From: Thermocrinis sp. | GTDB taxonomy: Bacteria; Aquificota; Aquificia; Aquificales; Aquificaceae | Length of the DNA: 64,000 nt | Direction of reading: 5' to 3' | Assembly (NCBI GenBank): GCA_020833645.1 | Contig: JAJHRQ010000001.1 | Location: 1 to 64,000 of the forward strand | Shown here: positions 28,112-44,825 of the stretch, one piece after another | Numbering within the stretch: position 1 is the stretch's first letter | How the letters are laid out: each line of letters begins with the position of its first letter | Notes under the pieces: generated by a model | The model's database searches: none | What the model saw: the letters and a program-made list of their open reading frames with translations, nothing else | Told to the model about the DNA's origin: nothing | Made by a program: the position numbers and the translations under genes

Positions 28112-28161
28112 AATATTAAAATATATTCTTGTATTCCAAAGGCGTCAAGAGTGGAAAAGGT

Positions 28162-28193
28162 TGTTCTAAAAATACAAACTCATTGGTACACAA
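28162..28193 (+). repeat. Solo copy of the left-end sequence of the tnpB element
   Basis: tgttctaaaaatacaaactcattggtacacaa vs 42914-42945 tgttctaaaaatccaaacccattgacacacaa, 28/32 identical. Confidence 0.7.
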
Positions 28194-28209
28194 AGGATAA
28201 AATGATACT

Positions 28210-28959
28210 ATGATTTACATTCTCCTCTTTCTGCTTGGTGCGGTGCTTGGTTCCTTTTATAACGTGCTCATATACAGAATCCCTCGTGGTATGTCCATTG
28301 TTAATCCACCTTCCCACTGTCCAAGCTGTAAAACACCCATAAAGTGGTATAACAACATCCCAATAATTTCCTACGTCCTCTTGAGGGGAAAGTGTCCAAA
28401 CTGCTCTGCCAAAATATCCATCAGATACCCTCTTGTGGAGGCTTTTAGCGGTTTTCTGGCGGTTCTCTCCTATTACAAGTGGGGCTTTAGTATTACCGCC
28501 CTTGGGCTTTATGTATTCTTTTCCCTACTGCTGGTACTTAGCCTGATAGATTGGGATACCTTTAGCCTACCGGAGCCGTTGATGTTGGGTGGAACAGTCC
28601 TTGGTGTGATTACCTCCGTCTTTAGGGAGGACTTTAGCCTCTATGAGAGCCTTTTGGGAATATTGGCGGGTGCTTTGCCCTTTTTGCTTATATACCTTTA
28701 CTACAAAAAAGTCAGAAAGTTTGAGGGGCTTGGGTTTGGAGATGTGGAGCTTATGGCTCTCATAGGTAGTTGGACGGGCATATGGGGTGTGATTAGTGCG
28801 GTCTTTTTGGGCTCCCTCTTTGGGCTCCTTTATGTGCTTCCTATACTGATAAAACATAAAAGCGTGAACTTTGCTATTCCCTTTGGTCCCTTTCTTGCCC
28901 TTGGCTGTTTTGTTGGAGTTGTTTTTGATGGCTGGCGATTTTATCTAACAGGCTTTTGA
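28210..28959 (+). CDS. pilD: Prepilin peptidase
   Basis: GSFYNVLIYRIPRG; CPSCKTPIKWYNNIPIISYVLLRGKCPNCSAKISIRYPLVE; GFGDVELMALIG. Confidence 0.93.
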   Translation: MIYILLFLLGAVLGSFYNVLIYRIPRGMSIVNPPSHCPSCKTPIKWYNNIPIISYVLLRGKCPNCSAKISIRYPLVEAFSGFLAVLSYYKWGFSITALGLYVFFSLLLVLSLIDWDTFSLPEPLMLGGTVLGVITSVFREDFSLYESLLGILAGALPFLLIYLYYKKVRKFEGLGFGDVELMALIGSWTGIWGVISAVFLGSLFGLLYVLPILIKHKSVNFAIPFGPFLALGCFVGVVFDGWRFYLTGF

Positions 28960-34555: not shown

Positions 34556-34646
34556 CCTTTTTGCCTCTGGTTCTCCTTCTTTGCAAGAGGCAGAGGTTAT
34601 ATACCTTCCGGAGATCCACGACAACCTCATTACAGAGAACTACTAA
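34518..34646 (+). pseudogene. 5' remnant of an exported, possibly ChaN-like protein gene
   Basis: MLFRWSIALMVFSLFASGSPSLQEAEVIYLPEIHDNLITENY*; signal peptide then VIYLxEIHDN, then out of frame into tnpB-like sequence. Confidence 0.45.
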
Positions 34647-34933
34647 AGGACAAGGAGTTTTTGGCGTGCGCTATTGCCAAGGTAGATGAACGGATTAATA
34701 AGCTGAAGAGTGAGTTAAAGAAGGAGAAGAATGAATACAAAAAGAACGCACTCAAGGAGAGGGTTAAGCGGTTAAGGAAGTATTTAAAGTTATTGCTTTT
34801 CTATACACGGGACAGCGGGAAGAGTGAGCCAGCTACCCAACAAGCGGTCAATCGCTGGCGGAAACCGATGAGGGGTAGGGCAAAGACCCTACAAAAAAGC
34901 TGGCAAGTTCTTTCCGTATTGAGCAGGACATAA
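34626..34933 (+). pseudogene. 3' remnant of a TnpB-like gene (paralog of 42973..44529)
   Basis: HYRELLKDKEFLACAIAK...KKEKNEYKKNALKERV...SEPATQQA...KTLQKSWQVLSVL aligns with NYERLLKDKVYLEFALKR...IEKESNEYKRNALKSEL...SEPSSCEEA...KTTLQGVWQVLKV. Confidence 0.8.
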
Positions 34934-42749: not shown

Positions 42750-42972
42750 GGCTACACCTCCCATAAAGTTTTTCCCTCCCGGGACCGGTCCCATAGAGGG
42801 TTATGTTTAATTTTATTCCAGGCAAAACAAAAAAATCAAAGCTTCACAAATACTTCACAAAAACTCCCTATATTATATTCTCTATGGGAGACATCACCAG
42901 GGCAGGCTGAGACTGTTCTAAAAATCCAAACCCATTGACACACAAGAGTTTTAAAGTTAAAATTTAACCCTG

Positions 42973-44529
42973 ATGTTTGTTAGCCTTCAATTCAAGCTTG
43001 AACTGAAAAGGGAAGATAGAGAAAAACTCATAAAGCTGATGCGTAAGCAATCCTCTGCCATCCGAGTGGCATACAACATGCTAAAGGAGTTGGAAAAAGA
43101 GAAAACAAGAAACCCACATGCCCAAATATATCAAAGACTAAGACAACTATTCCCTGAACTACCAACCAGATATATTGACTCAGCCATATACAAAGCTAAG
43201 CAGTATCCCACAGATAAACCAGTGGTCTTTGGAGGCAAAAGACTTTTTGAAAAGCTTTGCAAAAATCATCTTTCAGGAAAGGCAAGAGAAAAACTTAAAA
43301 AGCAGTGGAGAGAACTAAGACAAGGAACTCTTGTAAGCATCGGGTCAAAGGCAGACAAAGGAAACAGACTAATGAGATTTGAAGACCTAAAAGGACAGAT
43401 TTACCTTAGAATTACCACAGGAAACAGAGAGTTTGTCTACGCAAAAGTGTTAAGAGAGCCAAGCAACAGCAAAGACAAGTGGCTCACCTTTATGGCTATG
43501 CTTTTAGAAAGTTGGCAAACTCAAAGCTACTTTCCTTACACAGTGGAGTTAAAACTAAGAGATGGAGAAGTTTATGGAAGTGTATCCTTTGAAATCCCAA
43601 CGCCTGAAGTTAGATACACCAAAGAAAACGGAGTAATAGCCATAGACACAAACGCATCACCCATACACTTAGCCATAGCGGGAGTCTCAAAAACTGGAGA
43701 ACTACTAAGCTATCAAACCATCAGCTTACACCACCTTTTAGGACTTTCCCAAAACAGCAAAGACCACCAAGAGTGGATATTAACCCATCAGTTAATAGAT
43801 TTAGCCATTCAGAAAGGTAAAGCTATAGCCATAGAGAACCTAAAGAAACTCAAAAAGGGAATGCGTGGAGATGGGAAAGCTGAGTTAAGAAAAAGGCTTC
43901 ATCACTGGAATGCCAAAAAGTTTATGCAAAAGCTAAAGAGGGTAGCAATGTTAAAGGGAGTGGAAGTGATAGAGGTAAATCCCGCCTATACATCAGTCAT
44001 AGGCATGCTAAAGTATGCACCGCAGTTAAGCGTAGATAAAGACGTAGCTGGTGCTTATGTGATAGGGAGAAGAGCACTGGGCTTTAAAGAGGACATGCCT
44101 GAGAATTACGAGAGGCTTTTGAAAGACAAAGTATATTTAGAGTTTGCTCTAAAGAGGTATGAAGAGGGGGAAAAGGACCTTGTGGAACTCATAGAGAAGG
44201 AAAGCAACGAATACAAGAGAAACGCACTAAAAAGCGAACTAAGGAGTGTAGAGAATTCAAAGAAACTTTTAGCTAATCTCATACAAAGCCTTCAGAGTGA
44301 GCCAAGCTCCTGCGAGGAAGCCAACGGAAGGAATCCCGAGCAGGGGAGGGTAGCAAAAACTACCCTTCAAGGTGTTTGGCAAGTTCTGAAGGTAGCCCTT
44401 CTCTTCCCTATCCTTGGAAAGGTCTTGCCAAGGGACCTTTCTCCTCTGAAGCCTGTGTTGGTGGAAGGGGTGTGGGATAGGGTGAGGAAAGGGTTAGTTC
44501 CCTTTGAGGCTAGGGGGACGTCCCGATGA
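42973..44529 (+). CDS. tnpB: TnpB/IS605 OrfB-like protein (RuvC-fold), no obvious zinc ribbon
   Basis: GVIAIDTNASPIHLAIAG (RuvC I D), AIAIENLKKLKKG (RuvC II E), VEVIEVNPAYTSVIG...SVDKDVAGAYVIGRRALG (RuvC III D). Confidence 0.82.
   Translation: MFVSLQFKLELKREDREKLIKLMRKQSSAIRVAYNMLKELEKEKTRNPHAQIYQRLRQLFPELPTRYIDSAIYKAKQYPTDKPVVFGGKRLFEKLCKNHLSGKAREKLKKQWRELRQGTLVSIGSKADKGNRLMRFEDLKGQIYLRITTGNREFVYAKVLREPSNSKDKWLTFMAMLLESWQTQSYFPYTVELKLRDGEVYGSVSFEIPTPEVRYTKENGVIAIDTNASPIHLAIAGVSKTGELLSYQTISLHHLLGLSQNSKDHQEWILTHQLIDLAIQKGKAIAIENLKKLKKGMRGDGKAELRKRLHHWNAKKFMQKLKRVAMLKGVEVIEVNPAYTSVIGMLKYAPQLSVDKDVAGAYVIGRRALGFKEDMPENYERLLKDKVYLEFALKRYEEGEKDLVELIEKESNEYKRNALKSELRSVENSKKLLANLIQSLQSEPSSCEEANGRNPEQGRVAKTTLQGVWQVLKVALLFPILGKVLPRDLSPLKPVLVEGVWDRVRKGLVPFEARGTSR
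44290..44440 (+). ncRNA. Candidate omegaRNA-like structured RNA overlapping tnpB 3' end
   Basis: Perfect hairpin AGGGTAG-CAAAAA-CTACCCT (44347-44366) with flanks CGAG.AGGGG and TGGCAAGTTCT shared with the decayed copy, where the stem is GTAGGG-CAAAGA-CCCTAC (34875-34892). Confidence 0.5.
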
Positions 44530-44825
44530 GGGATTTTTTAGAACAGCCTCAGGCGGGCTCAAACAGAGGAGACCTGGAAAGGGAGCTGGAAGATATTCTC
44601 CGATTTGCTAAGATAACCTATCAGAGGTATGTTTTAACCATAGAGGACTACACGCGGGAAGAGCTGGAAGGAGACCTGAAGGAATACACCCTACAGCTTG
44701 AAAACTTTGTTGCCCCTCTTCTGGAAAGGGCTGAAGAGGAGGGGTACGAGGATCTTGCCAAGGAGATAGAGGGCTACTACAAAAAGCTTATTGACGCAAT
44801 AAAGCAGAGGCTTTCGGAGATATGA
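44526..44825 (+). CDS. Hypothetical helical protein, N-terminus replaced by insertion element
   Basis: Native start apparently ATG 42884 (MGDITRAG) left of the element; now ATGA overlap with tnpB stop. Confidence 0.7.
   Translation: MRDFLEQPQAGSNRGDLERELEDILRFAKITYQRYVLTIEDYTREELEGDLKEYTLQLENFVAPLLERAEEEGYEDLAKEIEGYYKKLIDAIKQRLSEI

Follow-up and report, generated by a model that had tools for sequence, protein, structure and literature searches.

In eukaryotes, Fanzor1 nucleases are known to be carried by DDE elements of the mariner, IS4-like and other types (Bao and Jurka 2013, PMC3627910). Fanzor2 has also been captured by transposons with terminal inverted repeats (TIRs), where the TIR and the target duplication were read together as the scaffold of the right-element RNA (reRNA) (Yoon et al. 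2023, PMC10711439). Bacterial tnpB elements have been surveyed, and the types recorded were IS605, IS607 and the transposase-less IS1341 only (PMC9956272). The open-licence literature yielded no report of a DDE element carrying a bacterial TnpB, although this does not prove that none exists. Here we describe such a candidate, a tnpB-like element in Thermocrinis sp. (GenBank assembly GCA_020833645.1), within positions 1 to 64,000 of contig JAJHRQ010000001.1; this whole stretch of 64,000 nucleotides is referred to below as the window. The element shares its TIRs, target duplications and target motif with a DDE insertion sequence (IS) of the same genome. We estimate at roughly three chances in four that a DDE transposase moves it, that the target preference of this enzyme supplies the target-adjacent motif (TAM) of TnpB, and that the duplication and adjoining host flank form the guide.

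Results

Ends, copies and target duplications of the element

The boundaries of the element were fixed from its other copies. The window contains an inverted repeat (42907-42924 and 44535-44552, 94% complementary), and the imperfect inverted ends described in the original prediction are therefore present; the true ends lie two bases further in on each side, so that the element spans 42909-44550 and reads GAG...CTC. In the copies the TIR is 17 bp long (GAGGCTGTTCTAAAAAT). The left TIR of the window element, GAGACTGTTCTAAAAAT, occupies 42909-42925 on the plus strand and the right TIR, GAGGCTGTTCTAAAAAA, occupies 44534-44550 on the minus strand; the same 17-mer also marks the two ends of the DDE IS and of many copies. 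When the window's genome was searched with an 18-nt end pattern (up to 3 mismatches), 66 matches were obtained as compared to 5 for a reversed control, so the TIR matches are not due to chance. Many of these ends form pairs, and the elements so delimited measure 1637-1648 bp and share 87-91% identity with that of the window.

Protein searches identified 27 tnpB matches in the window's genome, eight of them full-length, open and within TIRs, and more copies (~69-90% identity) in six other genomes (G001, G002, G004, G005, G006 and G012). The close relatives carrying copies in a scan of a named collection were metagenome-assembled genomes (MAGs) of Thermocrinis and Hydrogenobacter, and a phylum-wide search returned close relatives only in the window's order. 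An 85%-identical copy (L215) lies on a contig labelled Candidatus Caldipriscus, a member of another phylum; this is either a transfer or a binning error.

A 935-bp IS at L016 (1863-2797), which encodes a DDE transposase (PF01609 at 1.1e-12), has the 17-bp TIR of the window element and lies between perfect 10-bp copies of its target, gcgaaacagt. The best NCBIfam model for this protein was IS5-like with a score below its cut-off, and for this reason we do not name its IS family. Related DDE copies, mostly broken, occur in G001, G006 and G012 among other relatives. In a distant relative, a DDE-transposase-like match lies within an open frame of 1879 aa (L120, G048:C1:827532).

Clear duplications of 10-12 bp surround tnpB copies or their miniature derivatives at eight loci (L010, L016, L017, L019, L020, L078, L085 and L014). 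Slightly decayed ones were found at L081, L082, L088 and in the window, which brings the overall range to 9-12 bp. The lack of a nearby tnpA, pointed out in the original prediction, held more widely: no Y1_Tnp was found in eight genomes, including the window's own, while positive controls worked, and no serine recombinase or resolvase was found in G000, G001, G002, G006 or G012. The TIRs and duplications shared with a DDE IS, together with these negative searches, argue for a non-autonomous DDE-type transposon that carries only tnpB. Judged from these sequence features, the element appears to be mobilised like a DDE transposon and not as an IS200/IS605 or IS607 element, presumably in trans by a transposase of the L016 type.

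The interrupted host gene and the empty alleles

To the left of the element the host reads ATG GGA GAC ATC ACC AGG GCA GGC TGA from 42884 (MGDITRAG, stop). This 5' stump (42884-42908, plus strand) was delimited by alignment to the uninterrupted gene of relatives and includes, at 42900-42908, the left-hand duplicate of the target, GGGCAGGCT. To the right, the flank is GCGGGCTCAAACAGAGGAGACCTGGAA and the host frame resumes as AGSNRGDLE. It had been proposed that the element sits inside a gene, that the empty site can be rebuilt by joining the flanks at codons 8-9, and that related genomes should hold the uninterrupted gene. We found the gene intact in four siblings (G002, G004, G005 and G006; 90-94% identity over codons 1-96) and aligned the empty and filled alleles. 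The G002 allele reads MGDITKAGSNRGDLERELEDILRF, so the proposed join is correct. The 9-bp duplication of the window has decayed, with two differences between its copies; the right copy, AGGCGGGCT (44551-44559, plus strand), is the same as the empty site in three sibling species, and the empty site for this insertion is (acc)A, AGGCGGGCT, CAAACAG. The host protein is ~96 aa long and its gene, present in 23 of the 37 genomes searched, lies directly upstream of rlmB in the window. The protein encoded by 44526-44825 had no match in Pfam or NCBIfam.

We joined the flanks of 13 insertions, searched the sibling genomes, and could read the uninterrupted allele at ten loci. All ten empty alleles were ordered motif, duplication, right flank. 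At seven loci (the window, L010, L016, L019, L078, L085 and L014) the 20 nt after the right TIR matched the empty allele of at least one sibling at 20 of 20 positions; the remaining three loci matched at 17-19 of 20. The predicted 20-nt guide of the window element, AGGCGGGCTCAAACAGAGGA (44551-44570, plus strand), is a 20/20 match to the empty allele of G002, G004 and G006 and lies directly 3' of ACCA. The empty alleles thus show the layout that TnpB needs, in which a TAM is followed by a guide-matched target and the element is absent. From these alignments we infer that the 20 nt would be used as a guide and that the motif would act as the TAM.

Position and orientation of the target motif

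Of 51 tnpB-type left ends, 36 had the sequence GNCA at a distance of 9-12 nt on the outer side, as compared to 1 of 55 right ends (Fisher 7e-15). At loci with a clear duplication, the motif abuts the outer edge of that duplication exactly and tracks its length. The TAM-like motif does not adjoin the left end itself; it stands 9-12 bp outside, beyond the duplication. Six copies in the G029 lineage likewise have an NCA motif on the left. In the DDE-only ISs, the motif was found at 6 of 20 left ends and 11 of 22 right ends, and its orientation differs between tnpB elements and DDE-only ISs (p = 1.4e-6). Since the DDE-only ISs also have the motif, it is best read as a target preference of the transposase; the idea that TnpB makes or chooses the motif was dropped on the same grounds. 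The left-side rule for tnpB elements is strong but not absolute.

TnpB is conserved and under purifying selection

The tnpB-like open reading frame (ORF; 42973-44529, plus strand) encodes a protein of 518 aa, identified by TIGR01766 (1.4e-15; 57.5 bits against a cut-off of 32), alignment and predicted structure. Its RuvC triad, D225, E288 and D357, is invariant in 29 sequences. No CxxC pairs of a C4 zinc ribbon between RuvC-II and RuvC-III were seen at 340-357 in these 29 rows. An AlphaFold model of the protein (predicted local distance difference test, pLDDT, 82) was compared to known structures with Foldseek. It matched Cas12f best and also ISDra2 TnpB, ISFba1 TnpB and Fanzor2 (8dzj at 3.9e-9, 8h1j at 1.3e-5, 8iaz and 8exa), with modest whole-length template-modelling scores of 0.3-0.4. 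A sequence search of the PDB with the same protein gave no real match. Upstream of tnpB, a sigma-70-like promoter carried by the element (TTGACA-17-TAAAAT, 42935-42963, plus strand) is conserved in 11 of 12 left ends compared.

The ratio of nonsynonymous to synonymous substitution rates (dN/dS) across 22 tnpB copies was 0.133. Within the window's genome, the median ratio of nonsynonymous to synonymous divergence (pN/pS) was 0.147 over the first 445 codon columns. The copies are therefore not drifting, and TnpB is under purifying selection. In a tree of 49 rows the TIR-bearing tnpBs fell into two groups, 27 rows around the window and 2 in G029, among IS607-like rows without TIRs. Separate captures in the window and G029 clades require two changes on this tree, and a single TIR clade was also compatible with the data (approximately unbiased test, p-AU 0.505). 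It therefore appears that, within this family, DDE ends were acquired on one or two occasions by a TnpB of IS607-like ancestry.

A putative omegaRNA and its miniature derivatives

A putative omegaRNA scaffold (44286-44550, plus strand) overlaps the 3' end of tnpB and the right TIR. An overlapping RNA would be expected to lower synonymous divergence at this end of the gene, and synonymous divergence (pS), which is 0.29-0.50 further upstream in tnpB, is indeed reduced to 0.18-0.22 in the last 85 codons. In 40 aligned right ends we found a two-domain structure in which 98% of cells pair. Covariation was pronounced: 102 double-change cells were counted as compared to 30.7 in shuffles (0 of 500 shuffles reached the observed count) and at most 36 when the pairing partners were slid. 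Single-sequence folding gave z scores of -5.3 for the window and -6.7 for a miniature element. A covariance model built from the first 108 RNA positions matched once each in 25 of the 26 related tnpB loci examined, with 2e-4 for the weakest match; IS607-like tnpBs without TIRs are among these loci. Protein coding contributes to this similarity; the covariation and the non-coding miniatures are independent of it. The RNA ends in a terminal hairpin (TCCCGATGAGGGA, 44519-44533, plus strand), defined from the aligned right ends, which G015 and G022 keep with a quite different paired stem, ACTCTAC/GTAGAGT.

Deletion derivatives of ~307 bp without tnpB consist only of a TIR, a TTGAAA-TATAAT promoter, the RNA and a second TIR. 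They were found at L014, L020, L022, L023, L156, L168, L178 and other loci, and from their composition they look like mobile guide-RNA genes.

The window also holds, at 34600-34930, a 3' remnant of an IS607-type tnpB that reads KSEPATQQAVNRW... and resembles L116 and L117. The RNA model matches within this remnant at 34812-34919 (43 bits).

The re-made start codon and other element ends

The original prediction also noted that the right end supplies a new ATG at 44526, overlapping the tnpB stop as ATGA, and this reading of the sequence is correct. The ATG forms part of the hairpin loop at the end of the RNA (CCCGATGAGGG), where many copies have CCCAATAAGGG instead, in a variable stretch of the right end that reads GATGAGGG in the window and AATAAGGG in many copies. 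The remainder of the host gene (44526-44825, plus strand), as read from the sequence and from the intact gene of relatives, opens with this codon, and a restart would add nine residues, MRDFLEQPQ (predicted peptide MRDFLEQPQAGSN), ahead of AGSNRGDLE. Restarted translation of the host gene is thus possible. A conserved restart codon was considered as a family trait and dropped because the ATG is not conserved among copies; it is an incidental, chance feature of the right end of the window copy.

Two further sets of ends were observed. A solo left end, comprising a TIR and a promoter remnant after gtca/agagtggaa, lies at 28157-28210 of the window, directly upstream of a prepilin-peptidase-like ORF starting near 28212, which its promoter may serve. 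L028:1785 and L175:714 appear to be one host locus with a right end in one sibling and a left end in the other, the result of either an inversion or an independent insertion.

Discussion

The reading that we favor is that of a non-autonomous cut-and-paste transposon with the TnpB nuclease as its only protein. Its TIRs would be recognised by a DDE (PF01609) transposase given in trans by the 935-bp IS with the same TIRs. This enzyme would insert beside NNCA, mostly G[TGC]CA, and duplicate the next 9-12 bp. The tnpB transcript would carry an omegaRNA ending at the right TIR, in which case the guide consists of the duplication's right copy and the host flank after it; and since the motif immediately precedes this sequence in the empty allele, the motif would be the TAM. 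TnpB with its omegaRNA would then cut only sites without the element and may favor its retention through repair from a filled copy. The filled left junction offers just 9-12 nt of guide match beside the TAM and should escape cutting.

Several observations weigh against this interpretation. The score for NCBIfam guided_TnpB (NF040570) was 46.9 bits, below the cut-off of 100, and no Rfam family matched, a permissive threshold giving three chance matches only. Five full-length copies in the window's genome have no clear duplication, the G029 copy L253 has its motif on the right side, and the left-side bias could stem from the asymmetry of the ends instead of from TnpB. The window's MAG yielded a single intact DDE IS, and the closed sibling G002 (L081-L089) has several TIR-tnpB elements with tnpB still open and no PF01609 transposase. 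Mobilisation may therefore be past.

The most serious alternative makes TnpB a passive passenger of an element that is moved by the DDE transposase and oriented by the asymmetry of its own ends, with a guide geometry that serves no function. The motif beside the duplications of DDE-only ISs is indeed a preference of the transposase and not made by TnpB, and the difference between left and right ends among those ISs is not significant. Against it stand the strong purifying selection on TnpB, whose catalytic triad is invariant, the conservation of the RNA by covariation, and the miniatures that keep the promoter and the RNA; moreover, orientation is nearly fixed in tnpB elements while it is mixed in the DDE-only ISs with the shared TIR. 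We therefore consider this explanation unlikely.

It could also be speculated that transposition is catalysed by TnpB itself or by an unrelated transposase not found here. The closed genomes G002 and G029 lend this some weight, as both have TIR-tnpB elements and neither yielded a PF01609 transposase. It is common, however, for a transposase to be lost once an element has invaded, and the TIR, duplication length and target motif match those of the DDE IS in the same genome, which makes this proposal very improbable. A decayed IS605-, IS607- or IS1341-type element with chance inverted repeats, once moved by a TnpA now lost, is hardly tenable: TnpB clearly descends from such elements, and its nearest relatives without TIRs (45% identity) look IS607-like and have a homologous RNA, but the TIR is common to the DDE IS, 9-12 bp duplications of a kind that, to our knowledge, neither IS605 nor IS607 produces occur at many loci, and no Y1_Tnp or resolvase was found in the genus members tested.

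The favored reading can be extended, although we are doubtful about the extension as a whole. A DDE transposon would have taken over a bacterial TnpB lineage, its target preference doubling as the TAM and every insertion turning the target that it duplicates into its own guide. The ~307-bp derivatives would be mobile genes for guide RNAs, with TnpB acting on them in trans, and the 9-12 nt match at filled left junctions may allow binding without cutting and so repress the element's own promoter ~30 bp away.

The combination of TnpB with a DDE element, described mainly for eukaryotic Fanzor, is seen here in bacteria; there are dozens of copies, a sister DDE IS, and sister species that carry empty alleles. 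It provides a testable rule, that motif plus duplication equals TAM plus guide seed, and a thermophilic TnpB without a zinc ribbon whose TAM and guide are predicted. The adaptation of an RNA-guided nuclease to a new transposase would become directly testable.

Compared to known systems, the element resembles Fanzor1 and Fanzor2, which occur in eukaryotes and in viruses that infect them, in having a TnpB-like nuclease, sometimes as sole gene, in a TIR-bearing DDE transposon with target duplications. In contrast to Fanzor, the host is a bacterium of the Aquificota and the protein is a bacterial TnpB. In the Fanzor reRNA, the TIR and duplication are the scaffold; here the duplication varies and the sole conserved motif is external to it, which suggests that the duplication serves as the guide, as its seed. 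The IS607-type TnpB elements of Aquificaceae (L098, L103, L116, L117 and others) share a TnpB of 43-48% identity and a homologous 3' RNA, but have no TIR and no duplication, and their RNAs end at other sequences. Similar to the TnpB of ISDra2, an IS200/IS605 element (PMC8612924), the window element has the same predicted fold, the RuvC triad, a putative 3' overlapping guide RNA, and a predicted TAM on the left with the guide on the right; it differs in the absence of an HUH TnpA, in the duplication between TAM and left end, and in the missing zinc ribbon. Finally, it shares TIRs, duplication and target motif with the IS4/IS5-superfamily PF01609 IS of the same genome, but where that IS encodes a transposase, the window element carries TnpB.
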